The translations under genes and the position numbers were made by a program. From the IMG/VR virus record IMGVR_UViG_3300023174_000190, positions 1 through 58,594 of that record: 58,594 nucleotides of DNA; one strand, given 5' to 3'. Under the pieces are notes generated by a model. It was given only the letters and a program-made list of their open reading frames with translations, was not told where the DNA came from and ran no database searches. Positions 21,420 to 58,225 of the stretch are shown here, in pieces. This DNA is from a virus. Each line of letters opens with the position of its first letter. Within the stretch, counting starts at the first letter, position 1.

Positions 21420-22879
21420 TTTTCCTTTAAATTTATATTATAAATTTTATATTCAAACTTTTCGTCATTGTAAATTTTTATGCGCTCAGAGAAATGATCT
21501 AGAGTGAAGTTGTTTTTACCATTATAGGATAAATCGTCGGCAATGTCAAATAATATAGCTTGCTCTTTATTTTCTCCTAAACGCAATCCTCTACCAATTG
21601 ATTGAAGAGTTCTAATCTTACTCTTGCTTGGTGAAGCAAAAACAACATTGTGCAAATTTCGTATATTTATGCCTGTCGAAAACGTTCCATAAGAAGCGAC
21701 GATGATTGCATTATTTTCTGTTTCTGTTAGTCTTCTAACTTCTTCTCTTTCTTCTGCATCAACATTACCATGTATGAAAAAGACTGGGCGAGAATCTTCA
21801 TCAAGTGTGCTTTTAATTAATTCATGCAGAACTTTACCATGCTTTTCTACGAATTGATAGAGTAGTAGAGTATTACCTTTTAAATCCATAACAAGATTTC
21901 TTATGAATCTATTTCTGGACTCTTTACTAATTATGTAATCGATTTCATCTTGATATCGATAGCCTTTGCATTGTTCGCATGATTCTTTATCGTGCTTTAG
22001 TATAAGTGCTTTAATCTTAAACTTTGCTAGTTTACCATCATCAATTAGTTTCTTTGTTGTTGTAATTTGCTTTACTCTACCAAACAATCCTTCAAGAACT
22101 AATTTATGAGTTTGTGTACCATCAAGTGTTCCAGTCAAACCAAAACGATATGCACATGTAGTCATGTTTGTTAATATTGTAGTGAGAGATTTTGCTTTAA
22201 ATAAATGCGCTTCATCACCCACAATCAAATCAAACTTATTAAACCATTCTTTTGGCATCTTGTATACAGATTGCCATGTCGATATAATGATTGGCAGATT
22301 TGTATCTTTTTTTGATCCAGCAGTGATTTGATGTACGTTAGCATTGCTATCGTATCCATAAGATTCAAAGTCTTTATATAATTGAGCAACAAGAGAGATT
22401 GTTGGAACAATGATTAATGTTTTACAATTTAAATATCTCGTAATGAGATATATGATTAGAGACTTGCCAGAAGCTGTTGGAGATATTAATAGCCCTCTTC
22501 TTGCTCTTATTGCATAGATGAATGCGTCTAATTGATAGTCTCTGACTTCAAATGGTAATCCAAGAGTGTCAATAAATTCTTTAGCATCATTAGTAGAGAA
22601 TTCATCATATAGATCGACAGACTTATCAAATACTAATTCATAATCTCTTTCTTTAGCAAAACTAATAAGATATGGTATAAGTCCATAGTATAGTTGTCTT
22701 GTTGCTAAAGTAAATAGGCGAATCTTACCATCCCATATCTTATTACGATATGCTGGCATGAATTTGTATCCTGGAACATAAAACGTAAAATATTCGTTTA
22801 GATCCATTGCGCTAGAACCTTCGCATTCGATTCTAGCGTATACTTCATTTAATTTAGAGACTACGAGTTTATTATACAC
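21416..22879 (-). CDS. uvsW: UvsW helicase
   Basis: Superfamily 2 helicase that unwinds branched DNA and R-loops and resolves stalled forks, 487 residues. The N-terminal domain (YFTFYVPGYKFMPAYRNKIWDG) is the UvsW-specific DNA-binding part. Helicase motifs follow: PTASGKSL (I), GDEAHLF (II), FGLTGTLDG (III), and the C-terminal QSIGRGLRLG (VI). The start is GTG at 22879, inside the end of uvsY. A good Shine-Dalgarno is not seen, so translation probably depends on coupling to uvsY. Confidence 0.95.
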   Translation of the reverse strand: MYNKLVVSKLNEVYARIECEGSSAMDLNEYFTFYVPGYKFMPAYRNKIWDGKIRLFTLATRQLYYGLIPYLISFAKERDYELVFDKSVDLYDEFSTNDAKEFIDTLGLPFEVRDYQLDAFIYAIRARRGLLISPTASGKSLIIYLITRYLNCKTLIIVPTISLVAQLYKDFESYGYDSNANVHQITAGSKKDTNLPIIISTWQSVYKMPKEWFNKFDLIVGDEAHLFKAKSLTTILTNMTTCAYRFGLTGTLDGTQTHKLVLEGLFGRVKQITTTKKLIDDGKLAKFKIKALILKHDKESCEQCKGYRYQDEIDYIISKESRNRFIRNLVMDLKGNTLLLYQFVEKHGKVLHELIKSTLDEDSRPVFFIHGNVDAEEREEVRRLTETENNAIIVASYGTFSTGINIRNLHNVVFASPSKSKIRTLQSIGRGLRLGENKEQAILFDIADDLSYNGKNNFTLDHFSERIKIYNDEKFEYKIYNINLKEK

Positions 22880-43058: not shown

Positions 43059-43871
43059 TTAGAAAGTCCTTGAATCTGCGAAAGTGTTTTTCTCTGAGAA
43101 ATCTAATATATCATCTGTAATGATTTTCTGTCCAATGAATACGTTATCTGCAGAAACTTCAGAAGCGAGAACAACGTTAGATTCGTCGATAACGTAATCT
43201 CCGTCTTCTAACAATAGCAATGTATCATCTTCAAGTAGAGATTTTTCTATGTTTGTTGTAGATAGACTATACTGATCTTCAATTGCATCAATTGCAGGAA
43301 CATCAGTATCGATTCTTTCACTAGAGTATTCAAATCTATCACATCTCATTTCAAATGTGTAAAGATCGCCTAATTGAAAGAAGTTTTCAATGTTTTCTGT
43401 GAACTTGATTTCGTACATGTAGCCAAGCAAAGGAACCCAAATTAAATCGCCTTCTCGAGGTCTTAGAATTCCCGAGTAATCGTATCCTTGCTCTGCAAGA
43501 AAATAATCACCATCTTCTAAGAGAACATTATATCCATATTCATTCATCATTAAAGGCTTCAATGATTCAATGAATCTTTTTTGTGCAACTACGAAAGTGA
43601 TTGACTCATCGATTTGCAAACCAAATTTAGAAATGAAATCTTCTTGTCCCATAAAGCCATCATAGCTTTTGATATACATTTCCATTTCGAGTGCGTCATC
43701 ATAAATGATAGACCCATCTTCATTGTAAAGTTTATCTAAATTTACATGTGTTCTTGGAATGTAATATGCATCGACACCATAAATCTTTATTGACTCTACA
43801 ACTAATGATCTAATTAGTGACTGCTCCGATTTAATTGGAGAGTATTGATTAAAGAATCTATTGCGAGCCAT
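43059..43871 (-). CDS. 14: Neck protein gp14
   Basis: Head-completion and neck protein of 270 residues. It starts MARNRFFNQYSPIKSEQSLIRSLVVESIKIYG, with DAYYIPRTHVNLDKLYNEDGSIIYDDALEMEMYIKSYDGF conserved in gp14. IWVPLLGYMYEIKFTENIENFFQLGDLYTFEMRCDRFEYSSERIDT is another landmark. Two internal LLEDGDY segments (near 119 and 219) look like a small duplication in loops. TAATG overlaps gene 13. Confidence 0.94.
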   Translation of the reverse strand: MARNRFFNQYSPIKSEQSLIRSLVVESIKIYGVDAYYIPRTHVNLDKLYNEDGSIIYDDALEMEMYIKSYDGFMGQEDFISKFGLQIDESITFVVAQKRFIESLKPLMMNEYGYNVLLEDGDYFLAEQGYDYSGILRPREGDLIWVPLLGYMYEIKFTENIENFFQLGDLYTFEMRCDRFEYSSERIDTDVPAIDAIEDQYSLSTTNIEKSLLEDDTLLLLEDGDYVIDESNVVLASEVSADNVFIGQKIITDDILDFSEKNTFADSRTF

Positions 43872-44620
43872 TATCCAACCATGTCTAGAACTGGTAGCGA
43901 ATAAGAAGAAATCATTTCTGTTTCTAATTGATTTAATTCGTCTAGTGCTTCATCCCAAATCTTTTGCCCATTGAATGTGATGCCGCCAGGCATTGAAATG
44001 CCTTCGAACTTTTTAAGGTTCTCACCCCATTGCTTTTTGATTTGAGCTGTGCAATATCGCTGAAGCCAACGATCATTATACATGTCTGTATATGTGTCTG
44101 GATCAATTCTCTTATAGCCTTCAATGATAATGTATTCACCAGTTTTGACTTTAGTATCCCAGGACATATCAATATAAAGTTTATTAATATGACGATTGAA
44201 TCTAAGGGACTGTTTACCAACGAATAGTTCTTCAGCAAGTGCAACGTTTTGAAACGCCATGTAGTAAGGCGCAAACGGACCTGTGTTGAATGAATACAAA
44301 TCATTCAAAGAGATTTGATATCTTAGATTGAAAAGATTGTTTGTAGAATAACTATCGCCAACGTCAAGTATGCTTGTAACTCCAATGATTTCATCTGGAA
44401 TTTGAATATACTTGTTTATTTTGTCTTGGTCTGTGACTTGATGCGCTAGATAGATTTTCTCTGTTGCATCGTAATGATAATCATAATAATATGAAAACGC
44501 AATTTCAATACAATCTTCTATTTGCTCATCTGCGACGTTAATTTCTAATAGAGGTGCGCCCAATCGTCTAAGACAGAATTGCTTGAATTCTTCTCTTGAT
44601 GCTGGTTTGCTGGTACTCAT
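43871..44620 (-). CDS. 13: Neck protein gp13
   Basis: Head-completion protein of 249 residues that caps the portal after packaging. Conserved landmarks are REEFKQFCLRRLGAPLLEINVADEQIEDCIEIAFSYYYDYH at the N-terminus and the C-terminal YTDMYNDRWLQRYCTAQIKKQWGENLKKFEGISMPGGITFNGQKIWDEA. A late promoter lies about 30 bases upstream of the ATG, and gp13-14-15-16-17 are tightly packed behind it. Confidence 0.95.
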   Translation of the reverse strand: MSTSKPASREEFKQFCLRRLGAPLLEINVADEQIEDCIEIAFSYYYDYHYDATEKIYLAHQVTDQDKINKYIQIPDEIIGVTSILDVGDSYSTNNLFNLRYQISLNDLYSFNTGPFAPYYMAFQNVALAEELFVGKQSLRFNRHINKLYIDMSWDTKVKTGEYIIIEGYKRIDPDTYTDMYNDRWLQRYCTAQIKKQWGENLKKFEGISMPGGITFNGQKIWDEALDELNQLETEMISSYSLPVLDMVG

Positions 44621-44645: not shown

Positions 44646-44876
44646 CTATTTATAAAATTCGGAGACTATGAATGCTACGCTATCTTTCCAAATGAGATTA
44701 CCAAAACAAGCAATGTTCCATTTAGTTTCTCCATGTTCTTCTGTACGCTCGGTGAAAGTTTCTCCACCAAGAATACGAACGTCAGATGCTAAATGTTCGA
44801 CACCATTTTCAAACACTCTCCATACTAAATTTGATCCGTTATTTTTTGTATTAAATCTGATATGATATTTGTTCAC
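44646..44876 (-). CDS. Conserved small phage protein, 76 aa
   Basis: Starts with GTG at 44876, sharing bases with the stop of the kinase/nucleotidyltransferase gene. The sequence MNKYHIRFNTKNNGSNLVWRVFENGVEHLASDVRI, then WNIACFGNLIWKDSVAFI, resembles small uncharacterised proteins found beside neck genes in aquatic T4-like phages. Beta-rich, no enzyme motif. The function is unknown. Confidence 0.65.
   Translation of the reverse strand: MNKYHIRFNTKNNGSNLVWRVFENGVEHLASDVRILGGETFTERTEEHGETKWNIACFGNLIWKDSVAFIVSEFYK
44647..44654 (-). promoter_or_regulatory. T4-type late promoter for genes 13-17
   Basis: TATAAATA on the minus strand overlapping the end of the 76-residue gene, 27 bases upstream of the gp13 ATG, with AAGGGGAAG between. 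Confidence 0.82.
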
Positions 44877-45730
44877 GCAATTCCCAATTCTTTTCGAATC
44901 TTAGTTGCTGAGATTGAATGGATTGATTCATCAAATGTTTCTTGTTCAATTTTATATCCAACGTCGCGTCCATATGTGATGTTCACAATGTTTGGAACGA
45001 CTTGAATTTCGTATTGACCTTGAAAGATTGGATCTAAATCACGCTTGATGAAATTCTTTACTTGTTCAATTGCAAATGGATTGCTTCCTTGCCAGCCTTG
45101 ACAATCGCGAATTTGAATTACGACTTGACCAGTCTTTGCAATCGCACGTTCGAATAATGCTCTATGACCAGCATGCCACGGTTGCCATCTTCCGAGCATT
45201 TGAACTGTTTCTTTTTGCCAATCAAATGTTGGTCTACGTTTCTTTTCTAGAATGTGAGATCCAACGAAGTCCACCCACTTGTCAGCATTCTTTTCATTGA
45301 TACGAAAATCATAAACTTCTGGATCAATGAATGCTTTGTTTGTGTCTTCGTAGCGACCAGAATCAATCGTGTCCATCCAGATTGTCCAGTCAGCTTTAAA
45401 GTTATTTCGCATTTCTGGTAATGGTGCAACAAAATCGCAAATGACATAATCGCCAGATGCTCTAATTGCAAATTCAAACATGCGAAGTGACTGACGAATG
45501 CGACCTTCTTTTGAAAAGTCCCAATCGTTATATCGTTTTCGGATTTCGTCTGCGTTGAACCAATCGACTTCAGCGCTCCAGTATTGAGGAGCAACTTCAT
45601 ACTTCATCATTGTAGAATCTGGCATGTTTGAAATATTAGAATTGTTTTCTAAGTATTTCTTGAGTCTCTCTGCGAAGTATGTCTTACCAGATCCGGGAAG
45701 TCCCATGATCAAAATTCTTTGTGCTGCCAT
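44873..45730 (-). CDS. APS-kinase-like and HxGH nucleotidyltransferase fusion
   Basis: Fusion of 285 residues. The N-terminal domain has P-loop GLPGSGKT (10-17) and a DFSKEGRIRQSLRM-FEFAIRASGDYVICDFVAP stretch, close to adenylylsulfate kinase (CysC), which makes PAPS. The C-terminal domain has GRWQPWHAGH (180-189) and ISATKIRKEL near the end, the HxGH and S-x-T-x-IR motifs of NMN/ATP-sulfurylase-type nucleotidyltransferases. One gene could thus make PAPS from sulfate, as in animal PAPS synthase (inference), though an NMN adenylyltransferase or sugar-nucleotide role is possible. GGAG precedes ATG 45730. Its natural partner is the sulfotransferase at 52435. Confidence 0.78.
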   Translation of the reverse strand: MAAQRILIMGLPGSGKTYFAERLKKYLENNSNISNMPDSTMMKYEVAPQYWSAEVDWFNADEIRKRYNDWDFSKEGRIRQSLRMFEFAIRASGDYVICDFVAPLPEMRNNFKADWTIWMDTIDSGRYEDTNKAFIDPEVYDFRINEKNADKWVDFVGSHILEKKRRPTFDWQKETVQMLGRWQPWHAGHRALFERAIAKTGQVVIQIRDCQGWQGSNPFAIEQVKNFIKRDLDPIFQGQYEIQVVPNIVNITYGRDVGYKIEQETFDESIHSISATKIRKELGIA

Positions 45731-45759: not shown

Positions 45760-45767
45760 ATTTATGT
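45760..45767 (-). promoter_or_regulatory. Possible late promoter (CATAAATA)
   Basis: One mismatch to TATAAATA, about 30 bases upstream of the kinase/nucleotidyltransferase start. It overlaps the end of the upstream beta-propeller gene. Confidence 0.4.
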
Positions 45768-46835
45768 TTGAACGCTACAGAAATTTGAAAGATATACATC
45801 ATCAAACCCAGTTGGAGATGAAGCTGCTTCAGCTGAACCACCAACATCCCAAGTAGCAAAAGGAAATCTTGTAAGAGACCATGGAGCATATCCTGCAGGA
45901 GAACTTCTCGTAGTGTATCCGTGAGTTTGACTCTCATTTGTTGATGCTGGTATGTCACCAATTGGTGGTGCATTATTCAGCGATCCGACAGCAATAGAAG
46001 TTGAAAGATTTGTGAAAGGAAATCTTTCAGCAAGCTGAACAGGTGAATATCCTGGAGTTGGTGTGTTTGAAGTATAAGATGCACCACCAAAAATAAATGC
46101 GTGAGTTTGACCAGAAACTCCCTTTCCAGCATATCTATAATAAATCATATCAGAAACTTGAGTTGTTGGATTATTATTTGCAAATGGAAATCTCGTCGCG
46201 GTTTTACCTCCAGAGTATTGACCAGAACTATATCCATGCGTCATTGAATTTACTTCTGAAGAAATAGACGAAGGACCCACCTTTAAGTCATTAGACTGAA
46301 TAACTGAACCAAAATCTGTTGCATATAACCATTTATAATAACTCGCTCCGGACGGTGTTGGTGAAGGTGCCGAATAGTAAGTTGCTTCTGCAGATTGATG
46401 ATGTTTTGGAGTGGATCCTGCAGCTGGAAGATTGCCACACAAAGATGCAGTTACAGAACTTGAACTTGATTCTGCAAATGGAAACTTTTTAATATTTGAT
46501 GAAAACAATGGATTGGCGGGCGGACCGCCATCACCAAATGAATATCCATGAGTTTCAGAAGAAGATCCTCCACTTCCTCTTGAGTATGCTGGATTGCCTG
46601 GACCTGACCCATAAACATATCCAACATCAACTTGATTTGAACCATTGGAAAAAATAAATCTCTTTATTCTATTAGAGACATATCCACCATAGGTATATCC
46701 AGCAACTCTACCTTGTTTGCCAGATTTATAGAATCTATCAGCTTCAACTTGACCATCGAAAACAATTCCGCTACCTGTTTCAGATAATGTGAAAGATCCA
46801 ATTTCAATGCGATCTGGATAAAGTTTGATTGTCAT
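45762..46835 (-). CDS. Kelch-like beta-propeller tail protein, type A, 357 aa
   Basis: One of six paralogues. A short N-terminal adaptor (MTIKLYPDRIEIGSFTLSETGSGIVFDG) is followed by five to six blades of about 50-55 residues, each with a -GY-x-x-GG- turn and an RFPFA- strand (HGYSFGD, RFPFANNN, HGYSSGQ, AERFPFTN, HGYTTRS, LTRFPFAT). These are the strands of a beta-propeller. Probably a surface-exposed virion protein that binds receptors or shields the tail. Its type A N-terminus is shared with the next two genes. Confidence 0.75.
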   Translation of the reverse strand: MTIKLYPDRIEIGSFTLSETGSGIVFDGQVEADRFYKSGKQGRVAGYTYGGYVSNRIKRFIFSNGSNQVDVGYVYGSGPGNPAYSRGSGGSSSETHGYSFGDGGPPANPLFSSNIKKFPFAESSSSSVTASLCGNLPAAGSTPKHHQSAEATYYSAPSPTPSGASYYKWLYATDFGSVIQSNDLKVGPSSISSEVNSMTHGYSSGQYSGGKTATRFPFANNNPTTQVSDMIYYRYAGKGVSGQTHAFIFGGASYTSNTPTPGYSPVQLAERFPFTNLSTSIAVGSLNNAPPIGDIPASTNESQTHGYTTRSSPAGYAPWSLTRFPFATWDVGGSAEAASSPTGFDDVYLSNFCSVQT

Positions 46836-46836
46836 T

Positions 46837-47943
46837 TTAGTATTGTGCTCCTGCCGCAGATCTTCTCGATTTAACTAATGCTCCAACAGTTGTAAATGTA
46901 GTATCAGTAGCAAATTGAAATTTAAGTATTCTTGTACTATTTGTAGCTCCCCCCGGAGATGGATCTATTTGTCCACCTGCAATATATCCAGAAACTATAG
47001 AACTTATACCAGCACCATATACACCAGTTGTAGGCATTGTTCCTACATTTGATATTGCTTCTGTAGCAAATGGATATTTGTAAATATAGTCCATTCTATC
47101 TGGATTAGTTCCGCCACCACGAAGTCCGCCAAGATGATATCCACTTGTAGTTGAACTATGCCCAGTAGAATTTCGAGTACCTACTGGAACTGTTGTGAGC
47201 AATATCGTATTTCCAAATTCAGAAGCAAATGCAAATCTTTCAAAATTATTAAATCCTGCAGGAGTTGATCCGCCATAACTATATGCTCTAATTCCACTTG
47301 AAGAAGAAGAATTACTTGCAGTTATAGCAGACAAGTTTCCAATTAAAGTAGCATTTGTTGTTTCTGCTGTCAATGGGAATCTATCAATGTTTGAAATATT
47401 TTGTCCACCACCAGGCAATCTATTACTAAATCCTCCAAAGTTATACCCATAACTTTGATTCTGAGATGTTGCTTGATTATTTTCTTTATATGTGCTTAGT
47501 ACCCCAACGTTACTACCTACAGACCAAGGATTTGCAAATGGAAATCTTCCAATAGTGTCATATGTTGTATTGTCTGGCTGACTGTTTCCGCCAAGATTAT
47601 ATCCGTGTGTAGAAGATGATACTGCTGCGTTAATAATACGATATGCACCAATACCAGTATTGTCTGGATATAAAACTCCAGGTAATTGAGTAGCGTTTGT
47701 GTCTGTTGCAAATGGAAATCTTTCTACTGTTTGCGCTCCTGTTGCTAATGGAGAATTTGGTGTCGCACTTCCACCAAATGCATATCCAGCAACACTTCCT
47801 TGAGTACCAATAGTTCCTCTTCCCTGACCAGCAGAAATTTCTGGCGCATAAAAAGTTCCATGTTCAATCATGATTCCATTAGGAACAATTACGATATTCT
47901 TCGAACCTATCGTAATTCTATCTGAATTTATTGTTATTGCCAT
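46837..47943 (-). CDS. Kelch-like beta-propeller tail protein, type A, 368 aa
   Basis: Paralogue of its neighbours. Adaptor MAITINSDRITIGSKNIVIVPNGIMIEHG, then blades marked by VAGYAFGGSA, VERFPFATDTNATQLPG, HGYNLGGNS, GRFPFAN, YGYNFGGFS, IDRFPLTAETTNATLIG, RAYSYGGST, SGYHLGGLR, YKYPFATEA and SGYIAGGQI. The PFATDTNAT strand recurs in type B proteins as well. Blade number is six to seven by eye. The start is weak in ribosome-site terms, following the upstream gene after 14 bases. Confidence 0.75.
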   Translation of the reverse strand: MAITINSDRITIGSKNIVIVPNGIMIEHGTFYAPEISAGQGRGTIGTQGSVAGYAFGGSATPNSPLATGAQTVERFPFATDTNATQLPGVLYPDNTGIGAYRIINAAVSSSTHGYNLGGNSQPDNTTYDTIGRFPFANPWSVGSNVGVLSTYKENNQATSQNQSYGYNFGGFSNRLPGGGQNISNIDRFPLTAETTNATLIGNLSAITASNSSSSSGIRAYSYGGSTPAGFNNFERFAFASEFGNTILLTTVPVGTRNSTGHSSTTSGYHLGGLRGGGTNPDRMDYIYKYPFATEAISNVGTMPTTGVYGAGISSIVSGYIAGGQIDPSPGGATNSTRILKFQFATDTTFTTVGALVKSRRSAAGAQY

Positions 47944-47957
47944 GATTCTTTTTCTTT

Positions 47958-49112
47958 TTAGAAGTGATGACCAGAACCGTTTTGATGACTTGCTGTAGTA
48001 TCACCAATATATTGATGAGCAAGTTCTGCTGCAAATGGGAATTTCATGATCCAAGTTTGTGTAACTGGAGATGGACCACCTTCAGTTGCACCAGTAGCAT
48101 ATCCATATTCTGTAGATTGAAATGGTGATGCTGGTGTCCCTCTACCAAGAATTCCAGTAACTGGGTTTGATATATCTACATCTCCAACGAAATTATGAGT
48201 TGTGTCTGCAGCCCAAGTAAATTTGTATACAGATTTTTGCCACGGTGATCCTGAAGTGGAATATCCAGATGCAATAATTCCTGCAGTTGCAGTTTGATAT
48301 CCACTTCTTCCAAAATTACCGGATGCTGGAACATCTGTCCACGGATATGCCGACCAACTACCGCCACCACCAGTAAATGTTTGTGTTAAAGATATTCCAT
48401 TAAGTCCTTGACCAGAAAATGGAAATCTTAAAGTTGCGCCGGTAGTATAACTTGGTTGAGGAGAACCTGTCGTTCCTGCAATAAAATACCCATGAACTTG
48501 AGAACTAACCGCCCCACAATCTGCTCTTCCAGTGCTCATATACCCCACGGTAAATGCTGGTTGTTCAGTTACGAATTGAATTCTTTCCATTTCAGTTCTA
48601 GCCACTGAACCGGGCGGTCCAACATTAAACCCGGTACTATTAAATCCAATTTGTGAAGATGCATATACATGACTAGTTGTACTGACAGAGACCCCTCGTG
48701 ATAAATTTCCTATGTCAGACGCGCCAGCACTAGTGGTGAATGGAAATCTTTCAATTTTTGCAGAGCCTCCGATTGATCCATGATATCCGCCAAATGCATA
48801 TCCATGAGTTTTTGAAGACATTCCAGAATTGCGTCGTTGACTAATAGCTTGAACCATGTTACCAACTGACGTACTATTTTGTCCTCCAGCGGCAAATGGA
48901 ATTCTATCTATTACAGAAGTTGCATTTCCTGCTGTATTTGTTCCACCAGTTGTAAAACCAGCAATTGAACCTTGATTCAGCAAGTCTTCTGGTCTAAATG
49001 ATGTAATCGCACCATCAAAAGTAAATCCAGTAGTAGTTTCTTTTAATGTAAAAGTAGTTCCATTGTTGTCATCGACAAATTCAATGGAATCTTTTTTGAT
49101 TCTTATTGTCAT
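47958..49112 (-). CDS. Kelch-like beta-propeller tail protein, type A, 384 aa
   Basis: Third type A paralogue and the longest. Adaptor MTIRIKKDSIEFVDDNNGTTFTLKETTTGFTFDG, then blades marked by AGFTTGG, IDRIPFAAGGQNSTSVG, HGYAFGGYH, IERFPFTTSAGASDIG, HGYFIAGTT, ASGYSTSGS and YGYATGATE. RPEDLLNQGS is a short linker between adaptor and propeller. The start TAAATG overlaps the small gene upstream. Confidence 0.75.
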   Translation of the reverse strand: MTIRIKKDSIEFVDDNNGTTFTLKETTTGFTFDGAITSFRPEDLLNQGSIAGFTTGGTNTAGNATSVIDRIPFAAGGQNSTSVGNMVQAISQRRNSGMSSKTHGYAFGGYHGSIGGSAKIERFPFTTSAGASDIGNLSRGVSVSTTSHVYASSQIGFNSTGFNVGPPGSVARTEMERIQFVTEQPAFTVGYMSTGRADCGAVSSQVHGYFIAGTTGSPQPSYTTGATLRFPFSGQGLNGISLTQTFTGGGGSWSAYPWTDVPASGNFGRSGYQTATAGIIASGYSTSGSPWQKSVYKFTWAADTTHNFVGDVDISNPVTGILGRGTPASPFQSTEYGYATGATEGGPSPVTQTWIMKFPFAAELAHQYIGDTTASHQNGSGHHF

Positions 49113-49244
49113 TTAAAGTTCTTCTAGTTTTTCTAAAAAGAGTTCGAATGCATATCTATCTTCCATTGCGACTTTTTTCAAAGCAATTGCTAGTTCATCT
49201 TCCGACAATTCTAAAATTCTTTTAGCAAGCATGATTTCTGGCAT
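49113..49244 (-). CDS. Very small helical protein, 43 aa
   Basis: Reads MPEIMLAKRILELSEDELAIALKKVAMEDRYAFELFLEKLEEL, quoted here in parts: a charged amphipathic helix from LSEDELAIALKK to FLEKLEEL. ATG 49244 has AAAGGCGAT upstream; a longer frame to 49316 adds an unlikely hydrophobic start. Its stop overlaps the propeller gene start (TAAATG). Function unknown; it could be a small regulator or chaperone-like peptide. Confidence 0.5.
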   Translation of the reverse strand: MPEIMLAKRILELSEDELAIALKKVAMEDRYAFELFLEKLEEL

Positions 49245-49260
49245 AATATTATCGCCTTTA

Positions 49261-49608
49261 TTATGGATTATGCTGAGTATTAAAGCTAACAAAGTGGTCA
49301 TACCACTCTTCAGCATTAGTTACTACTTCAGCTTCAGTTAAATCTGGAGCAACAACGCCGTTAATTTGATCCATAATGTTTAATGGTCCTTTGATTGGAC
49401 TAACTGCATGAATTGCCAATTGTCTTGCAACAAATTGTTCTTTTGTCAAATAAACAATGGTGTCTGGAACATAGTAATCGCGAGTATCAGCAACCCAGCC
49501 AACCCATGAGTTATCTGATGGATTAAACCAATGTCCACGATCACCAACAAACTCTGGAACTTTTCTTCCAGCACCTTCTTTGACTAGCATGTATTCGATT
49601 ACTGCCAT
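49261..49608 (-). CDS. Unknown protein of aquatic T4-like phages, 115 aa
   Basis: Starts MAVIEYMLVKEGAGRKVPEFVGDRGHWFNP and has RQLAIHAVSPIKGPLN and acidic ends (LTEAEVVTNAEEWYDHFVSFN). No motif is recognised. AAGGAAG is present upstream and a TATAAATA box lies about 40 bases away, so late expression and a virion or assembly role are plausible. Confidence 0.6.
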   Translation of the reverse strand: MAVIEYMLVKEGAGRKVPEFVGDRGHWFNPSDNSWVGWVADTRDYYVPDTIVYLTKEQFVARQLAIHAVSPIKGPLNIMDQINGVVAPDLTEAEVVTNAEEWYDHFVSFNTQHNP

Positions 49609-49610
49609 TT

Positions 49611-50561
49611 TTATTCTTCCTTATTGTTGTTAGATAACAGTGCTACTTTATTTATATAAGAGTAATCCGCAACTGGTTCAGGATTGAATCCTTGCAGCTC
49701 CATTCTCTTATGGTCAACTTTATAAACGTCAGCCAACTCATCAGTAAGTTTATCAACGAATTCATATAATCCACTAACACTCCAATTGTCTTCTTCAGCT
49801 TCTGATGCAACATACTTCTGCAACAAGCCTTGAAGTTTCATTGGATTTACACCAATCTGTTCAATGTATTCTTGTTCACCTTTAGAGATTGCACCACGCT
49901 CTCTTACGTCACGAATACATTGAACTAATGATCTTTGAAGATGTGATTTAGTTTCCTCTTTTTCAACATCATGCTCAGAAAATCCTGTAACTTTTGCTTT
50001 TAATTGTTCGTATAAGTCATTGAGTGCTAGAACGTCTTTCATTGCACCTTCAATGTATAAAGTTCCAGTTGATGCACCTTCTTTCATCTTTGCAAGTTTG
50101 ATTTTCAAATCAACTTCGCGCCAATAATCAATAGTACCTTCTTCTAAACCTCTATTGAGTTCTTCTTCAATCTTACGCATCTTCATTTCACTTTCTACTT
50201 GACGCCATTTAGCTTCGCTAAGAGCAGCTTTCTTTGAAGCCATTTCTGCAGCGACTTGACGCATGTTTCGAATTGGTGAATGATACGAAAGATTTAAGTG
50301 TCTCCAAGTCCACTGAGTGTGACTATGGTTCCAAATGCTTTGTAGTTCTTCTACGTTAGCTAATGCTTGATCGACTTTAGCACTATTTTCATTCAATGTG
50401 CTTCCGCCAAAACTATCTTTATCGCCAATCAATCCTCTACCAAAAACGTAGCTTAGAGGAACATTAATTTTTGTAGCGCCAGTCGTTAAATCTCTACGAA
50501 TAGATTCGTAAATTGCAACTTCACCACCTGTTGACGATTTTTCAATTGAGTTCTTTTCCAT
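49611..50561 (-). CDS. Unknown helical protein, 316 aa
   Basis: Long helical protein beginning MEKNSIEKSSTGGEVAIYESIRRDL. The middle has a coiled-coil stretch (MRQVAAEMASKKAALSEAKWRQVESEMKMRKIEEELNRGLEEG, in which heptads are obvious), and the C-terminal part is helical with KLTDELADVYKVDHKRM. ATG 50561 is chosen with AGGAG upstream; a frame from 50585 would overlap the oxygenase more. Function unknown; position suggests virion assembly or modification. Confidence 0.6.
   Translation of the reverse strand: MEKNSIEKSSTGGEVAIYESIRRDLTTGATKINVPLSYVFGRGLIGDKDSFGGSTLNENSAKVDQALANVEELQSIWNHSHTQWTWRHLNLSYHSPIRNMRQVAAEMASKKAALSEAKWRQVESEMKMRKIEEELNRGLEEGTIDYWREVDLKIKLAKMKEGASTGTLYIEGAMKDVLALNDLYEQLKAKVTGFSEHDVEKEETKSHLQRSLVQCIRDVRERGAISKGEQEYIEQIGVNPMKLQGLLQKYVASEAEEDNWSVSGLYEFVDKLTDELADVYKVDHKRMELQGFNPEPVADYSYINKVALLSNNNKEE
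49649..49656 (-). promoter_or_regulatory. T4-type late promoter
   Basis: TATAAATA on the minus strand inside the end of the 316-residue gene, about 40 bases upstream of ATG 49608. Confidence 0.7.
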
Positions 50562-50562
50562 A

Positions 50563-51837
50563 TTATTTAAATCTCCTGTATCCATGAATCCATATCACTA
50601 ATGCAAATCTATCACCTTTTGTGATAGGCGTAACTTTGTGTAACATAAAACTCGGAAACAAATGAACAGATCCCTGTTCTTTAGTTCCCGTTACTTGTAC
50701 TCCATGATTATTTATAATCAATTCGCAGCCTTCATAGTCATTTTCGTCACTCAGTTGTGCAGTAAATGAAATTTTTCTTGTAGCAGCATTGCCTGGACCA
50801 GCATCAACGTGCCAATCATAGTGTCCTGGAATTTCATCTTTTGATTTATAATGAATCAATTGAATACCATGTAAAATACCACTAATATCAAAATCAAAAT
50901 GAATCGTATTTGCAATAGAAACAATTCTTGCAATCTTATCATGAATCCACGCATTTTGTTCACTATACTCTACATTATAAATTTCTGCAGAACGAACTTT
51001 TGCGTTAACTGCAGATTCTACAGTTCCAATAGAAGCATCATTTCCATAAGATTTTCTAGACAATGAAATGATTTTTTCACATTCTTCTTTTGTAAATCTC
51101 AATTCTGGGAAAATACCTTTATCAATGCACATATATCCTGGATAATGTTCGTCCGGATTTGGAATGATTACGCCGTGATGAATTGGACGACCAAAACGTC
51201 TATTTGGATCTAAACGAATCACACCATCTTCATGTCGAATTACGCCAGAATCTTGAGTGTTGTTTTGAACGTTTCCGCCCTTTAAAGTTCCAAAATTATC
51301 ACGACCATCTTTATAATGATCTTTGTATGGACCATTTGCATCTACATAATGCATGAACAATTGAACGTGCCATTGACCTTTGAATTCATTTCTCCAATGT
51401 TCAATATCACATCCTTTGTAAACAGCAAGTTCGCCGACATCCAATTCGACAACTCTGCGCTTTTCATCGTCAAAAAGAATTGGCCAAATCGGAGGCGAAT
51501 CAAATCCTAATGTCATTGTAGCACTAATTTCGCAAGCTGGTCGATCCTTATGCTTCTTTAAAACTTCTCCTGGTCTATAAATTCTTGCGTATGTATAAGT
51601 TGGAAGCAATTGTTTGCCAACTTGCTTACCAATTGGTGTAGCAAATTTTTGAAGAAGATCATCAAAAATAGGATCACCGTAAACAGCGTCAGAAAGTGGA
51701 CATTGTTCATCTTTAGTCGTTTTGCCTTGTTTTTGCAAATCGAACATGTGATCGGTTAATTTTTTACACTCTTCTTTTGATAATGCGCCACTTAAAACAA
51801 CATAACCATTTTTTTCAAAAAACTCAATAGTATCCAT
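50563..51837 (-). CDS. Double-domain 2OG-Fe(II) oxygenase, 424 aa
   Basis: Two oxygenase domains in one chain. The N-terminal one (about 1-165) begins FFEKNGYVVLSGALSKEECKKL and carries H96-K-D98 in KKHKDRP plus His147. The C-terminal one (about 240-424) has H343-V-D345 in YDWHVDAG, His400 in FMLHKV and Arg410, the complete iron and 2-oxoglutarate site of the prolyl-4-hydroxylase group. Such enzymes hydroxylate proteins or small molecules using O2. It abuts another oxygenase and a sulfotransferase. Substrate unknown; virion proteins or host surface precursors are plausible. AGAGG lies upstream of the ATG. Confidence 0.88.
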   Translation of the reverse strand: MDTIEFFEKNGYVVLSGALSKEECKKLTDHMFDLQKQGKTTKDEQCPLSDAVYGDPIFDDLLQKFATPIGKQVGKQLLPTYTYARIYRPGEVLKKHKDRPACEISATMTLGFDSPPIWPILFDDEKRRVVELDVGELAVYKGCDIEHWRNEFKGQWHVQLFMHYVDANGPYKDHYKDGRDNFGTLKGGNVQNNTQDSGVIRHEDGVIRLDPNRRFGRPIHHGVIIPNPDEHYPGYMCIDKGIFPELRFTKEECEKIISLSRKSYGNDASIGTVESAVNAKVRSAEIYNVEYSEQNAWIHDKIARIVSIANTIHFDFDISGILHGIQLIHYKSKDEIPGHYDWHVDAGPGNAATRKISFTAQLSDENDYEGCELIINNHGVQVTGTKEQGSVHLFPSFMLHKVTPITKGDRFALVIWIHGYRRFK

Positions 51838-51854
51838 TTTTTAACCTCTTTTCA

Positions 51855-52454
51855 TTATAATTTAAAAGCGTTAGGAATAAAGTTTACTACAGTCAATGGA
51901 GTAAACCATCCAGTAGCAATCATTTTTTCAGTAGTAGGTGACGGAAGTCCACGATGTAGATGAGTCCATCCAGCAGGCCATACTAAAGTCAATCCTTTTT
52001 CTGGCTTGATCTTTAATTTATAAAACATAAATTCAGTCTCTCCGCCAGTGTGAACATCATTTAGAAATGTCATCCAAACGAGTTCGCGAAATGCATTTCT
52101 ATCTTCATACCCGCGATCAGCATGAATTAAATGATATGCACCTTTTAATGGATACTTCTGAATGTTCATATGTTCAATCATAGCTAATTCGGGAACGAAA
52201 GATTCTAAATTATAATATGCAAAATAGTCTGAAACTATTTGCATAATTTCATCTTGCAATAGTAGACAATGATTTGGTGGCAATGAAATATCTAAAGAAT
52301 CTTTTTTAGTTTTATCGACACCAGTACCAGTTGTTCCTGGTCTAGGACGTAAAGTTTTAAAAGTTTGTATAGCTTGCTCCACAGCAAGATCAGAAACTTT
52401 GCTTTGTGTAATGAAGGTTGTTAGACCTTGATATTCAATTGGATGTAAGTTCAT
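51855..52454 (-). CDS. 2OG-Fe(II) oxygenase, prolyl-4-hydroxylase type, 199 aa
   Basis: Single-domain oxygenase. Iron ligands appear as H111-A-D113 in LIHADRGY and His167 in LHRGLPSP, with Lys177 as the likely 2-oxoglutarate ligand; ELVWMTFLNDVHTGGETEF is the usual core strand. ATG 52454 is chosen; an upstream TTG at 52484 would extend into the sulfotransferase gene. It overlaps that gene by 20 bases, indicating coupled synthesis. Probable protein or small-molecule hydroxylation. Confidence 0.85.
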   Translation of the reverse strand: MNLHPIEYQGLTTFITQSKVSDLAVEQAIQTFKTLRPRPGTTGTGVDKTKKDSLDISLPPNHCLLLQDEIMQIVSDYFAYYNLESFVPELAMIEHMNIQKYPLKGAYHLIHADRGYEDRNAFRELVWMTFLNDVHTGGETEFMFYKLKIKPEKGLTLVWPAGWTHLHRGLPSPTTEKMIATGWFTPLTVVNFIPNAFKL

Positions 52455-53271
52455 TTGGATAAAATCCTCTATAAAACCACTCAAAATTTTTCATAACATT
52501 AGTATGAAAATCTTCAGGTAAAGTTCTTTTTGGTTTAGAATAAGTTTGAAAAACTGGGTTTGTCACATGATCAGTTTTCTCTCTAAAGTATGCATGATCA
52601 TGTTCTACAATAAATGATTGTTGAATGTTGTCTAAATCGTGTTCGAACCAATCTTGTTCTAAGAAATTATATAGTTGCTTCAACATATAGATTGGTTCCA
52701 TTGTGAAATCTTCGTATCTAAGAAAAAACACTTTACTTCTATCTTTTTTAAAGACTTCCATCAATCTAGGAATTTCGCTTTGAATCGCAATAGAGACTGA
52801 GTTTGTTTCTTGAAAATAATATTTATATTTTTCAGCATCATGCATTGCTGTGGTCATACTCATATCATCACTAAATGAATGTAATGCTAAAGTTTTTTCA
52901 CCAACTCTTTCAAAACTTTCAACAACATCTCTTAAATCTCTAACCATGCATATGTATTTTGATTTTGGAAATAGATGAAATAGATTAGACCATGCTCTAT
53001 TTTTTGAAATTACAAAAGGTTTATCTGTGAGACCTTCAAACCATCCTTTAGCTGCTCCATGTATTGCTCCATACATTGCTTTATCAGCTTGCTCTACAGA
53101 CATTGCTTGAAATTGTTCTCTATATCTAGACTTGATAAGCATATGCTCATGCAAAAGCCCATACAACGCACATGTGGATGTTGTGAAGATTTTGGGATTT
53201 TGTTGTAGAATATTCATTAACACGGTGCTTCCTGATCTTGGAAGCCCGCCACAAAAATGTAATTGATTCAT
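52435..53271 (-). CDS. PAPS-dependent sulfotransferase, 278 aa
   Basis: Moves sulfate from PAPS to an acceptor. The 5'-phosphosulfate loop is GLPRSGSTVLM (9-19) and the 3'-phosphate motif MVRDLRDVVESFERV. FFLRYEDFTMEP and YNFLEQDWFEHDLDNI are also family features, and KPKRTLPEDFHTNVMKNFEWFYRGFYP forms the C-terminal part. No signal peptide, so it is cytoplasmic. The substrate is unknown; the fused APS kinase/nucleotidyltransferase gene at 44873 could supply PAPS. GAGG precedes ATG 53271. Confidence 0.9.
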   Translation of the reverse strand: MNQLHFCGGLPRSGSTVLMNILQQNPKIFTTSTCALYGLLHEHMLIKSRYREQFQAMSVEQADKAMYGAIHGAAKGWFEGLTDKPFVISKNRAWSNLFHLFPKSKYICMVRDLRDVVESFERVGEKTLALHSFSDDMSMTTAMHDAEKYKYYFQETNSVSIAIQSEIPRLMEVFKKDRSKVFFLRYEDFTMEPIYMLKQLYNFLEQDWFEHDLDNIQQSFIVEHDHAYFREKTDHVTNPVFQTYSKPKRTLPEDFHTNVMKNFEWFYRGFYPNELTSN

Positions 53272-53326
53272 ACCACCTCATTTTATATTCATCAGATATA
53301 CATTATATATGAAAGAATTTTAAATG

Positions 53327-54427
53327 TCAATCTTGAGTATTTGTATGTCCGTAAGTCGGAGTTGTCAAATTCCCAACAGAGAATGCTGAAGTCTCAGATG
53401 AGAATGGATACTTTGTAATTGTTGAAACATAAACCGCTGGTGGTGCGTATGTTGTTGCTCCACCAGCAATGTAAAAATGAGATGATGATGTTGATGAAGT
53501 CGGTCCAAGTTCTGATATAGCTGTAGCTAAATTTCCCAAACTTGTTGCATTGGTATCTGTCGCAAATGGAAATCTTTCAACTGAAGATGCCACTGTTCCA
53601 GGAATTGTAGTAACACCACCAAAAACATATCCACTAACTGTACTTCCGCCGCCACTAACACTTGTTCTTCCTGTTGCTAAGTATCCACCCAATGTTGCAT
53701 TTGCATTTGATGCAAAAGGAGCATTGCGTATTTGACCATTCGCATATGTAGAATTATCGCTTGTAGAATAAGTCCCTCCAGCAACATATCCTTTTGCTGG
53801 ACTACTTATTGCTGCGCCTTTTACTCTATTTGCCATTCCATACCCAATGTCATAAGCACTGGTACTTCCGTATGTATGAGAAAAAGCAAATCTATGTAGT
53901 CCACTATACTTTTGCGAAAACAAAGGAGATGCTGTTGCCGAATTACTTCTCCATCCACCAGAAATGAATCCATATGTTGGAGATGATAATCCAGCACTAT
54001 CTGAAAAATATGCCCTATTAAACGTTGGATTCCCAAAATTTGAAAGTGTAATACCAACGTTAAAAGAAGTTGCTGGTAAAGCAGTTGCAAATGGAAATTG
54101 CTCAATGACTTCAAATTGAGATGGGCCGTTATATCCGTTAGCTGTAAATGATGCCGTTGCTGATGAATGTCCTGACATATCGCGACGAGCATAATTTAAA
54201 TTTCCAATACTTGTTGCGTTAGTGTCTGTTGCAAATGGATACTTTTCAACTTTAGAGGTATATGATGGTACAGTTTGTCCGCCACTTGTATATGCAGCTA
54301 CGGTCCCAACTGCTGGAGGAGCAGTCAAAACTTCAATAACTCCTGTGTCTTGTGTCACATTGAATTGTGCCAAAGACATAGTTCTGGTAGCTGAAATAAG
54401 TGTATTACCTGATCTTTGAAATGCCAT
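53327..54427 (-). CDS. Kelch-like beta-propeller tail protein, type B, 366 aa
   Basis: Type B adaptor MAFQRSGNTLISATRTMSLAQFNVTQ, then blades marked by VAAYTSGGQT, VEKYPFATDTNATSIGNL, IEQFPFATA, YGFISGGWR, KGYVAGGTY, SGYVFGGVT, VERFPFATDTNATSLGNL and FYIAGGAT. The adaptor is shared with the two genes to the right (MAFL-x-x-GNT) and differs from type A. Ribosome site weak. It is the last of the type B set. Confidence 0.75.
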   Translation of the reverse strand: MAFQRSGNTLISATRTMSLAQFNVTQDTGVIEVLTAPPAVGTVAAYTSGGQTVPSYTSKVEKYPFATDTNATSIGNLNYARRDMSGHSSATASFTANGYNGPSQFEVIEQFPFATALPATSFNVGITLSNFGNPTFNRAYFSDSAGLSSPTYGFISGGWRSNSATASPLFSQKYSGLHRFAFSHTYGSTSAYDIGYGMANRVKGAAISSPAKGYVAGGTYSTSDNSTYANGQIRNAPFASNANATLGGYLATGRTSVSGGGSTVSGYVFGGVTTIPGTVASSVERFPFATDTNATSLGNLATAISELGPTSSTSSSHFYIAGGATTYAPPAVYVSTITKYPFSSETSAFSVGNLTTPTYGHTNTQD

Positions 54428-54452
54428 TTTTAGTCTTTATATTTTAAAAAGG

Positions 54453-55520
54453 TTAATCCATGAAACATGCAGAGCCGTAACCACCAATAGTCTGATTTCC
54501 AACGTTAGTTGCGTTTCCATCGGAAGCAAAAGAAAATTTAGAATATCTTCTTTCGTGAGGAAAAGCTGCTGGGCTTGGGACTGGTGTTGCTCCACCATAA
54601 CCAGAACATCTATATCCGTATGTTGTACCACTATGACAATTGTTTGTTACAAATCCTGGAGTAAAGTCTAAATCTCCAACAAGTGTTCCAGTTGTTCCGG
54701 GTGTTGCAGCGAATGGAAATTTAGTTATTTTAGTTGTAGCGACTCCTGGAGTACCAGTATTATAACCAGCAACATATCCATGTGTTACCGATGATATTCC
54801 GTGTGGATTTCCGTTTGATGTTTGAAATAAATTTCCAATAGTAGTTGTTGGAGTTGTGCTTGCAAATGGAAATTTATCAACAGTACTAACTGCTGTGTAA
54901 CTAGTTTGTATAGCAGATCCACCCATAACAAATCCATTTCCTCCAGACTGATCACTAGCACCACAAGCGAATTCTTTAGCACTACCTAAAGATCCAGTGT
55001 TGATTCCGTTCGTATCGGACAAAAGTGAAAATCTAGTCATATCAGTTACTGTAGCTGCATTACCAGGATCTCTTCCTCCAGACATATATCCATGATCTTT
55101 AGAATTTCCTTGTGCAGCATAATGCTGTGTATTTGGTGCATTGAGTCTATAATTATCAGCTAGAGACCAAATAGAATCACTTGCAAATGAAACTTTAGCA
55201 ATTGCCGCACCATATTGCGGAACATGAAATCCATTAGTTGTTGACGAATACCCCGAGGATCGTCCAGAAAAAGATTCAAGTGACGCTCCAGCAGTTACAA
55301 AATTACTATCTGTAGCAAATGGGAATTTTTCATAAACCTGTGTTTGACCATAATTTGGACCAGGATTTCCTGAAGAGTATCCAGAAATAGTTCCACCATA
55401 ACCGTCTAGTGCAGCTGTGAAAACTAATGCGCCGCCTTGAATGCTAATGTTACTAAAAACCGTATTAGCATCAGTAGTGTCATCTGCAATAACTGTATTT
55501 CCTGATTGTAAGAATGCCAT
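54453..55520 (-). CDS. Kelch-like beta-propeller tail protein, type B, 355 aa
   Basis: Adaptor MAFLQSGNTVIADDTTDANTVFSNISIQGG, then blades marked by ISGYSSGNPG, YEKFPFATDSNFVTAGA, HGYMSGGRD, VDKFPFASTTPTTTIGNL, HGYVAGYNT, ITKFPFAAT and YGYRCSGYG, ending with YSKFSFASDGNATNVGNQ. FPFASDGNAT-type strands match those of the other propellers. Confidence 0.75.
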   Translation of the reverse strand: MAFLQSGNTVIADDTTDANTVFSNISIQGGALVFTAALDGYGGTISGYSSGNPGPNYGQTQVYEKFPFATDSNFVTAGASLESFSGRSSGYSSTTNGFHVPQYGAAIAKVSFASDSIWSLADNYRLNAPNTQHYAAQGNSKDHGYMSGGRDPGNAATVTDMTRFSLLSDTNGINTGSLGSAKEFACGASDQSGGNGFVMGGSAIQTSYTAVSTVDKFPFASTTPTTTIGNLFQTSNGNPHGISSVTHGYVAGYNTGTPGVATTKITKFPFAATPGTTGTLVGDLDFTPGFVTNNCHSGTTYGYRCSGYGGATPVPSPAAFPHERRYSKFSFASDGNATNVGNQTIGGYGSACFMD

Positions 55521-55558
55521 GGTTCTATTACTTTATAGATTGAATGTTAAATGAGATT

Positions 55559-56662
55559 TCATATTTGATGGCCGCCAGTCAAATTGTTTCTTGGAATTAC
55601 TAAATTTCCAATATTAGAAGAATTTGTATCATTTACAAATGAATATTTGTCGATAATTCCAACTGAAGTTACTGCTGGGAATGCTTTTCCTCCAGCAGTA
55701 TATCCATTCGTAGTAGAAGAAGCATCACCTCCACCATATCTACCAGACGTTAAAACTGCGCTTTGTACTGTTGCATTGGTGTCTGATGCAAATGGAAACT
55801 TTGAAATCCCTGTTGTAGATGTCGACCAACTATTTGTTGTCGAACCTGCAACAACATATCCAGAAGTTGGAGAAGATCCTCCAAATGGTCTTGATCTAAC
55901 TGCAGCTAAATTTCCAATTGTGGTTGCATTAGTATCAGTTGCAAATGGGAATTTATCAATTTTAGTTTTATAATATGGAGCTGGATTTGAATCGAACGGA
56001 GTTGGCGCTAGTGCATATCCACCAGAGACATAACCACTTGTAGTAGATGATTGTCCAGATGCTGCATATACTGGAGCAGTTAGATTTCCTACTGGGAGTG
56101 AGTCTGCATCAGATGAGAACGCATATTTGTAAATTCTATTTACTGATTGATGCCAAGCACCACCAGAACTATATCCATATCCATAAGGAATTGAAGATTG
56201 TCCAACACCAACGTGTAAGTTTGGTTGACCAGTTATAGGAGATGTGTTTGGATAAGTAGCAAATCTTCCGACTGTTGTCGCTTTAACACCATAATCAACT
56301 GCAAACGGAAACTTTTGAATTGTCGCAACATATTGAGTAAATCCACCAGCCTGATATCCATTAGTAGCAGATGAACTCAATTGTCCATCTCTACTTCTCA
56401 TTTGCATATCGCCGATGATTGATGCATTCCCATCATTTACGAATGAAAATCTTTCAATAGTTGATACAGTTCCTCCAGGTATAGGATCTGAATATCCTAC
56501 GCCAATATACCCATAGCGTGTGCCTTGAAATATATTCCCGGCAGCAGTCGTATAGAAGTTTTGACCAATGTAGATTCTACTATTAGCAGTAACGGTTAAT
56601 GATGTAAATGCTCCGTTGCCAGAATCATTGATAATTGTATTGCCGTTTTCTAAAAATGCCAT
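55559..56662 (-). CDS. Kelch-like beta-propeller tail protein, type B, 367 aa
   Basis: Adaptor MAFLENGNTIINDSGNGAFTSLTVTANSRIYIGQ, then blades marked by YGYIGVGYS, IERFSFVNDGNASIIGDM, NGYQAGGFT, IQKFPFAVD, YGYSSGGAW, SGYVSGGYA, IDKFPFATDTNATTIGNL, SGYVVAGST, ISKFPFASDTNATVQSA and NGYTAGGKA. Seven blades by eye. It follows the S74 fibre gene. Confidence 0.75.
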   Translation of the reverse strand: MAFLENGNTIINDSGNGAFTSLTVTANSRIYIGQNFYTTAAGNIFQGTRYGYIGVGYSDPIPGGTVSTIERFSFVNDGNASIIGDMQMRSRDGQLSSSATNGYQAGGFTQYVATIQKFPFAVDYGVKATTVGRFATYPNTSPITGQPNLHVGVGQSSIPYGYGYSSGGAWHQSVNRIYKYAFSSDADSLPVGNLTAPVYAASGQSSTTSGYVSGGYALAPTPFDSNPAPYYKTKIDKFPFATDTNATTIGNLAAVRSRPFGGSSPTSGYVVAGSTTNSWSTSTTGISKFPFASDTNATVQSAVLTSGRYGGGDASSTTNGYTAGGKAFPAVTSVGIIDKYSFVNDTNSSNIGNLVIPRNNLTGGHQI

Positions 56663-56680: not shown

Positions 56681-58225
56681 TTAATTCTTTTTACTACGCT
56701 TTGGCTTTGATTCTAAAGAACTAATTCTTTCATTCAATTCTTTAATCGTTTCGATTAGATATGGAATGATACCAAGATAGTTAACTGTCTTATGATTCTC
56801 GCCAGTAGAAACTAGATGAGGAAGAACTTTTTCAATATCTTGAGCGATCACACCAGAACTCTTCAATCCGTTGTCTTTCCATGTGAATTGAACACCAGTA
56901 AGCTGTTCTAGAATGTTCATTGGATTTTCAAGCGTCATAATGTTATCTTTCAACGCCATGTCAGAGAGTGAGTTGAAGTTTGTTGCACTTAATGTTCCTG
57001 TGCTTGGAACATAATACAACGCATTGCCCGTAACATACGCTGTAGTTAAACTTCCTGTAGTAGCAGAAGACATTGTTGGATAGAATGTGCTACTTGAACT
57101 TGTATTGCTTACTGTTGCACCAGCGGCTGCGAATGAAAGTGTTCCAGTTCCGTTTGTGACTAGTGCTTGACCAGATGTTCCGTCTGCTGTTGGAAGAGTC
57201 CAAGTAACGTTAGCACCAACTGCTGATCCTGATCTAACTGCAACATAGTTAGCATTTGAAGATGCTAGTCTTAATGAACCAGTCGAACCGATTGTTACGT
57301 TTGCGCCGTCATAAATTAGATTTGCACTTCCACTAAATGTCGAAGATCCAGAGTTGTACTGAATCGAATTCGCAACGCCTGATGGAGGAGTTAGAACAGT
57401 AGCAAAAGAAAGTACACCAGATCCGTTAGTGACAAGACCTTGGTTTACACTTCCGTCTGTAGCTGGTAATGTCCATGTAACGTTTGCGCCAACTGCTGAA
57501 CTTGATTTCAATCCAACATAGTTTGCGTTTGCAGATGATCCAAGTCTTAGTACGTTTTGATTATTCAAGTAAACATAACTATTTGCAGTTAGAGCATTGA
57601 CTGCGAAGTCAGCATATGCAAAGTTATTTGATGCCGGGAAAATCTTTGTAGTTGGTTCTACAGAATACGCTCTAAACAGTTTCCAAACACCGTCTGTAGA
57701 ATCTCTAAAGATACCAGAGTGAACGTTTCCTGATCCAGCATTATATTGTCCAAAAACACCAATGTCAACTAGATCAGAAGTATTGTTATTAGCTAATTGT
57801 ATTAATGGGTCATTGACGTTAATTTGTGTTGTACTGATTTCTGTGTTTCCACCTAAAACAGTCAAGTTTCCAGTAATAAATGTGTTACCAGAAACATAAA
57901 GATTCTTTCCAATTCCAACACCACCAGAAACTACTAATGTTCCTGTTATAGAATTTGATGCATCAGTTCCGCCAGAAAGTGTCAATACGTCCGTTGTCGA
58001 ATTGTATGTCATTCCAGAATCGTCTTGAATTAGACCAGCAGTTCCAACTAAAGCAACGCGACCAGATGTTAAATTGTTTGCTGTAATCGTATTCGCGGTT
58101 ACTGCATTTGTAATTATACTTCCGCTTCCACCATCCGTAAGTGCCGTGATAGTGTTTGCAGCAGTATTAAATGCTGTTCTAAAATCGTTAAACGTATTGT
58201 TTAACTGTATATTTGAAATTGCCAT
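56681..58225 (-). CDS. Tail fibre with C-terminal S74 chaperone, 514 aa
   Basis: Fibre protein beginning MAISNIQLNNTFNDFRTAFNTAANTI, with a beta-helical middle (SGGVGIGKNLYVSGNTFITGNLTV) and a duplicated stretch AVGANVTWTLP. The last about 95 residues are an S74 intramolecular chaperone: Ser421 and Lys426 in LSDMALKDNI are the self-cleavage dyad, then FTWKDNGLKSSGVIAQDIEKVLPHLV and KTVNYLGIIPYLIETIKEL. The chaperone helps trimerisation and is cut off. A coiled-coil end (ERISSLESKPKRSKKN) follows. Confidence 0.92.
   Translation of the reverse strand: MAISNIQLNNTFNDFRTAFNTAANTITALTDGGSGSIITNAVTANTITANNLTSGRVALVGTAGLIQDDSGMTYNSTTDVLTLSGGTDASNSITGTLVVSGGVGIGKNLYVSGNTFITGNLTVLGGNTEISTTQINVNDPLIQLANNNTSDLVDIGVFGQYNAGSGNVHSGIFRDSTDGVWKLFRAYSVEPTTKIFPASNNFAYADFAVNALTANSYVYLNNQNVLRLGSSANANYVGLKSSSAVGANVTWTLPATDGSVNQGLVTNGSGVLSFATVLTPPSGVANSIQYNSGSSTFSGSANLIYDGANVTIGSTGSLRLASSNANYVAVRSGSAVGANVTWTLPTADGTSGQALVTNGTGTLSFAAAGATVSNTSSSSTFYPTMSSATTGSLTTAYVTGNALYYVPSTGTLSATNFNSLSDMALKDNIMTLENPMNILEQLTGVQFTWKDNGLKSSGVIAQDIEKVLPHLVSTGENHKTVNYLGIIPYLIETIKELNERISSLESKPKRSKKN

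Follow-up and report, generated by a model that had tools for sequence, protein, structure and literature searches.

Kelch-type propeller proteins as probable exchangeable host-recognition heads of a T4-like myovirus

In pelagi- and cyanomyophages a hypervariable host recognition cluster (HRC) located between the baseplate and neck genes encodes tail fibres and putative receptor-binding proteins (PMC7029224). The phage vB_PcaM_CBB encodes three kelch proteins, CBB_550, CBB_552 and CBB_554, one of which has been detected in the virion (PMC5259590), and oxygenases are among the genes of marine metaviromic islands (PMC3909814). Phage kelch proteins, fibres that combine a conserved N terminus with a variable C terminus, and the host recognition cluster are each already known; we found no description in the searchable literature of exchangeable kelch propellers carried on slot-specific adaptors around an oxygenase and sulfotransferase core. 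How abundant aquatic phages switch hosts has still to be worked out, and most of their recognition proteins lack annotation. Here we analyse six paralogous proteins that, in our judgement, are likely to serve a T4-like myovirus as interchangeable heads for host recognition, mounted on fixed slots of the virion.

The window, meaning the whole stretch of DNA that was analysed, is a virus contig of 58,594 bases whose late genes lie on the minus strand in T4 order. From 44.6 down to 35.4 kb (-) it carries the genes for the neck proteins Ad2 and Hc2, the sheath stabiliser, the small and large terminase subunits, sheath, tube and portal; the gene for the major capsid protein lies at 23.9-25.3 kb. 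This protein shares 64-68% identity with its homologues in a Stenotrophomonas phage and in T4-like phages of Pelagibacter, Methylophilales and cyanobacteria; because these matches spread over several host groups, they do not resolve the host. All six propeller ORFs picked out in an earlier note on this DNA are present on the minus strand, in one array at 45762-49112 (B) and another at 53327-56662 (C) (Table 1). We note that the S74 fibre protein at the upstream border is 45 residues shorter than its counterpart in the sister contig, through an in-frame indel in its N-terminal part.

Table 1. Features of the propeller cassette and of its two borders
Feature	Position	Strand	Basis and remarks
Tail/baseplate fibre protein, C-terminal S74 chaperone domain	56681-58225	-	PF13884 E 6e-12; PHROG baseplate wedge/tail fibre; upstream cassette border
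C3 propeller gene, 367 aa	55559-56662	-	adaptor 56528-56662, then six blades; six blade HMM matches, AF2, Foldseek
C2 propeller gene, 355 aa	54453-55520	-	adaptor 55401-55520; homology and six blade matches
C1 propeller gene, 366 aa	53327-54427	-	adaptor 54308-54427; homology and six blade matches
Sigma70-like promoter TTGACA-17-TATAAT	53302-53330	-	12/12 consensus match, just upstream of the sulfotransferase gene
Sulfotransferase (Sulfotransfer_3)	52435-53271	-	PF13469 E 1.7e-16
2OG-Fe(II) oxygenase ox2	51855-52484	-	PF13640
Oxygenase ox1	50563-51837	-	C-terminal 2OG-Fe(II) domain; N-terminal half phrog_2954, weakly PhyH
X324, conserved cassette protein of unknown function	49611-50585	-	adjoins ox1/X115 in relatives
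X115, conserved cassette protein of unknown function	49261-49608	-	kept in the cassette of relatives
B3 propeller gene, 384 aa	47958-49112	-	adaptor 48975-49112; homology and six blade matches
B2 propeller gene, 368 aa	46837-47943	-	adaptor 47800-47943; homology and six blade matches; propeller apparently replaced relative to sister
B1 propeller gene, 357 aa, most divergent copy	45762-46835	-	adaptor 46716-46835; AF2 and Foldseek
Neck protein, head-tail adaptor Ad2 (T4 gp13 position by gene order)	43871-44620	-	phrog_211 E 1e-42; downstream cassette border

Each of the six proteins is built from a 40-48-residue N-terminal segment and a six-bladed kelch-type β-propeller. That they are paralogues, as had been proposed, is confirmed by their mutual homology in blastp searches (E down to 4e-26, with B1 and C1 the weakest pair at about 1e-4); propeller identity within this contig is 30%, and we found no members of the family in the record besides these six. 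The signature that they had been said to share holds as a degenerate blade repeat of about 45-55 residues, GQSSxTxGYxSGG-loop-NxIDKFPFASDxNATDVGDLTxxR, which is common to all six; the exact string FPFATDTNAT is confined to B2, C1 and C3, and a strict count of GYxxGG gives between 1 and 5 per protein. With a blade HMM we count six matches in B2, B3, C1, C2 and C3, and five plus one degenerate unit in B1. Exactly six blades are found in 199 members of our homologue set, which comprises 221 distinct proteins.

The predicted structures of C3 and B1 both lead to kelch structures; a fold other than a propeller, one of the outcomes that the earlier note had named as telling against its reading, did not appear. 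The AlphaFold2 model of C3 (pLDDT 84.6, pTM 0.84) is aligned by Foldseek with six-bladed kelch structures at a TM to target of about 0.91-0.92 and an rmsd of 2.5, and that of B1, which is of moderate confidence (pLDDT 71), with kelch domains at a TMt of about 0.74. A profile of 84 relatives also matches the kelch domain of KLHL12 (E 2.4e-4), with the blade registers in agreement. None of the six reaches the curated cut-off of the Pfam kelch models, and only C1 touches Kelch_1/Kelch_6 (E 0.12-0.4); a kelch fold without a Pfam kelch match indicates a divergent sequence family and not a member of the Pfam kelch group. Searches of Pfam, PHROGs and NCBIfam with the propellers gave almost no matches. 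C3 matches PHROG 19111 (unknown function) at E 1.2e-10, as do several relatives, and the other five copies do not match it at E 0.1. A tblastn search of cultured phages with C3 found nothing, and a consensus-like relative used as the query finds Synechococcus phage S-SKS1; a single-protein scan of bacterial genomes matched three MAG contigs, which are probably phage carry-over. Across homologues blade 1 shows index memory and blades 2-6 show none, and the absence of such memory fits shuffling and strong convergence alike.

The division into two N-terminal classes made in the earlier note is real. The first 40-48 residues read MTIxxxxDxIxIG...GIxFDG in class B and MAFxxxGNTxIxx... in class C, and the class resides in this adaptor and not in the propeller: the propeller of B2 is nearer to that of C3 (E 2e-17) than to those of B1 or B3. 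In the AlphaFold2 models the adaptor of B1 forms a confident small β unit (residues 1-30, mean pLDDT 85-91), and that of C3 is poorly predicted (pLDDT 43-62). Among relatives, C adaptors lie mostly upstream and B adaptors mostly downstream of the X324 landmark (29/8 versus 11/45; Fisher p 3e-8, a value inflated by related contigs). Other N termini, neither B nor C, are present in 123 of the 221 relatives, and with about half of the relatives so equipped the propeller appears as a head used with many adaptors. One ORF of a relative (L112:12426-13199) joins a B adaptor through a poly-proline linker to a non-propeller head; a further candidate of this kind (L083:11249-12682) was rejected, as it reads as a divergent propeller. 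N termini like adaptor C are found on S74/tail-fibre proteins in a weak match (E 2e-5 to 8e-4) with a profile built in this analysis, and adaptor-only tblastn searches in phages gave no useful match.

Comparison of related phages, one of the checks suggested beforehand, reveals that propellers are exchanged between relatives while the adaptors keep their order. In the sister contig (L001/L070), B1, B3, C1 and C2 are 92-97% identical to ours, against 64% for B2 and 75% for C3. Over their first 40 codons B2 and C3 retain 93-100% DNA identity and diverge thereafter, such that the C3 adaptor is 100% and its propeller 71% identical, and the B2 adaptor 90% and its propeller 61%. Propeller dS relative to the sister is 0.74 for B2 and 0.62 for C3, compared with 0.06-0.28 for the other genes of the block. 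Values so far above those of their neighbours argue for replacement and not only faster change, and thus point to recombination just after the adaptor as the probable source of both propellers. The same separation is apparent over greater distances: among seven phages that carry three downstream propellers, gene order is the best of the six possible ways to match up the B adaptors in 18 of 21 phage pairs, and to match up the propellers in 3 of 21, where 3.5 would be expected by chance (1/6), although these pairs share phages and are not independent, so that we claim no p value. The B adaptors therefore resolve into at least three ordered slots. The earlier note had envisaged two attachment points on the virion; such physical sites may exist, but with at least three slots for the B adaptors that number may be too small. 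Several phages, this contig not among them, have propellers that are more alike within the genome than between genomes (for example 71% versus 51% in L076), suggesting that propellers are homogenised within those genomes.

Judged from sequence, these proteins have the conserved N terminus and exchangeable C-terminal domain expected of a receptor-binding protein. We propose that each short N-terminal adaptor would dock its propeller at one ordered position on the baseplate or fibre, or possibly at the neck, and that diversifying BC and DA loops of the propeller would bind host surface molecules. Lineages would keep the ordered set of adaptors and swap propellers by recombination just after the adaptor, which would change specificity and preserve assembly. 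That the proteins are present in the virion, dock there and bind such molecules is what we infer from the computed features of the locus. In eukaryotic kelch domains such as that of Keap1 the ligand face is formed by the BC and DA loops. Over 3188 homologue pairs, which are not independent, the share of differing sites is 60-63% in the BC and DA loops, with many indels in BC, as against 33% in the CD loop and 7-21% in the strands; the short AB turns, at 66%, are as variable as BC and DA. The variability of BC and DA supports a role in recognition, but that of AB means that variation is not confined to one face. Ratios of dN/dS are 0.17-0.49 for the propeller genes versus 0.02-0.11 for the sulfotransferase, oxygenase, X324, kinase and neck genes; all lie below 1, and we thus saw no positive selection on whole genes (dN/dS > 1).

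The two arrays flank oxygenase and sulfotransferase genes, as the earlier note had stated (PF13640 E 2e-11 and 3e-9; PF13469 E 2e-16), and this arrangement is conserved. Relatives have their genes arranged as S74 fibre, propellers, sulfotransferase, one or more oxygenases, X324, X115, propellers, sometimes a kinase/nucleotidyltransferase, and neck genes, an order seen both in loci retrieved by the propeller and, independently, in those retrieved by X324. X324 itself has no match in Pfam, PHROG or NCBIfam, and no homologue was found in cultured phages. Among the 18 distinct X324 loci whose flanks are long enough, propellers are present in 17, ox1 in 18, X115 in 17 and the sulfotransferase in 13. 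Propellers also lie beside sulfotransferase and oxygenase genes in S-SKS1 and in the single-cell virus AG-345-L05. Three contigs (L093, L094 and L095) have X324, ox1 and X115 without a propeller in the available stretch, and contain matches to the collagen-like fibre of this contig in or near the region. In two others, 119-aa ORFs (L021:1395-1754 and L030:634-993) align along most of their length with the S74-chaperone ends of fibre proteins and sit directly before arrays of nine propellers. The promoter before the sulfotransferase gene is identical in the sister contig and occurs in a version with a different spacer in L008/L018; as a perfect σ70-type sequence it raises the possibility that expression of the enzymes is separate from that of the structural genes. 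Exact copies of TTGACA-17-TATAAT lie also at 57740-57768 and 21521-21549 (-), making three in the contig. The late-promoter motif WATAAATA is uninformative, with 13 found versus 11.8 expected by chance.

Two other roles for the propellers have to be weighed against that of recognition heads. They could decorate or shield the head, neck or sheath of the virion and diversify to escape unwanted interactions, a role that would account for as many as 11 paralogues in one locus of a relative, a number above what is usual for receptor-binding proteins, and that would suit both the adjacency of the second array to the neck genes and the variation of AB positions along with BC and DA. We nevertheless regard it as improbable: the genomic place appears to be that of the host recognition cluster, adaptor C resembles the N termini of tail fibres, and Pfam and PHROG searches with the propellers revealed no similarity to known head decoration families. 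Exchange of propellers and changes in BC-loop length fit recognition better than shielding, whereas the variability of the AB turns does not discriminate between the two. The propellers might instead act inside the infected cell as protein-protein scaffolds. Their nearest folds are the kelch domains of poxviruses and eukaryotes, which are intracellular, and the cassette contains, ahead of the sulfotransferase gene, a promoter of early type; that promoter, however, stands downstream of the C array and ahead of the enzyme genes, the propeller genes sit within the structural region, their products have N-terminal types in common with fibre proteins, and other phage kelch proteins have been annotated as virion structural proteins or found in virions. 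A scaffolding role within the cell thus strikes us as the least probable of the three, and recognition heads remain the reading that we favour.

In the PDB the sulfotransferase matches only tyrosylprotein sulfotransferases (E 7e-5), ox2 matches prolyl 4-hydroxylases (E 3e-4) and ox1 matches PKHD-type hydroxylases (E 5e-8 to 1e-7), similarities that are weak and, by themselves, do not fix a substrate. Proline is enriched in the BC loops (14.9% versus 5.1% overall), and tyrosine enrichment in the loops, looked for as a sign of sulfation, was not seen (5.0% versus 4.3%). The pairing of oxygenase and sulfotransferase suggests a possible modification of the propeller proteins. It is conceivable, if rather doubtful, that the propeller loops, or the linkers and fibres that carry them, are substrates which the prolyl-hydroxylase-like oxygenases and the sulfotransferase hydroxylate and/or sulfate, in which case a chemical layer of variation would be added to exchangeable recognition heads; the enzymes may also modify host glycans. 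A gene at 44873-45730 (-), whose counterparts in several relatives separate the last propeller from the neck genes, encodes a P-loop kinase (PF01583 APS_kinase, 24.2 bits, cut-off 21.1) joined in one protein to an NMN-adenylyltransferase-like domain. Its assignment as an APS kinase supplying the sulfate donor is ambiguous because of this second domain, and the product could take part in NAD metabolism or in activating sulfate.

All our examples of the six-slot architecture come from metagenomic contigs. The family offers a recognisable and widely distributed head domain, a clear split between a conserved dock and an exchangeable head, and a conserved enzyme set at the same place, and propeller types could be linked to hosts in metagenomes. 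The cassette is variable in content, has an S74 baseplate/fibre gene on one side and Ad2, Hc2 and the sheath stabiliser on the other, and may correspond to the HRC. The resemblance is one of position, the upstream HRC landmark VrlC lying, if present, beyond the contig end; the text of the HRC paper makes no mention of kelch or sulfotransferase, and neither slot-specific adaptors with exchangeable propellers nor a core of oxygenase, sulfotransferase, X324 and X115 is described there (PMC7029224). Phage CBB, a large myophage, likewise has its kelch-propeller paralogues in a small cluster, but its proteins resemble our six propellers only at the level of the fold (Foldseek TMt 0.65). The propellers of S-SKS1 (NC_020851) are homologous to ours (E down to 9e-77 with the A2 profile) and lie beside sulfotransferase and 2OG oxygenase genes, although the N termini differ and some of its propeller ORFs are truncated. 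KLHL12, Keap1 and the designed protein SAKe6 share the six-bladed kelch fold (TMt up to 0.92), with a blade register that agrees in KLHL12, yet identity is 13-18%, the phage repeat has its own signature (FPFASDxNATDVGDL), and a Pfam search detected no BTB or BACK domains in the six phage proteins. Modular tail fibres (e.g. PMC3909814) also pair a conserved attachment end with an exchangeable recognition end; here, in contrast, the head is a kelch propeller on an adaptor of 40-48 residues, with up to eleven paralogues per locus.
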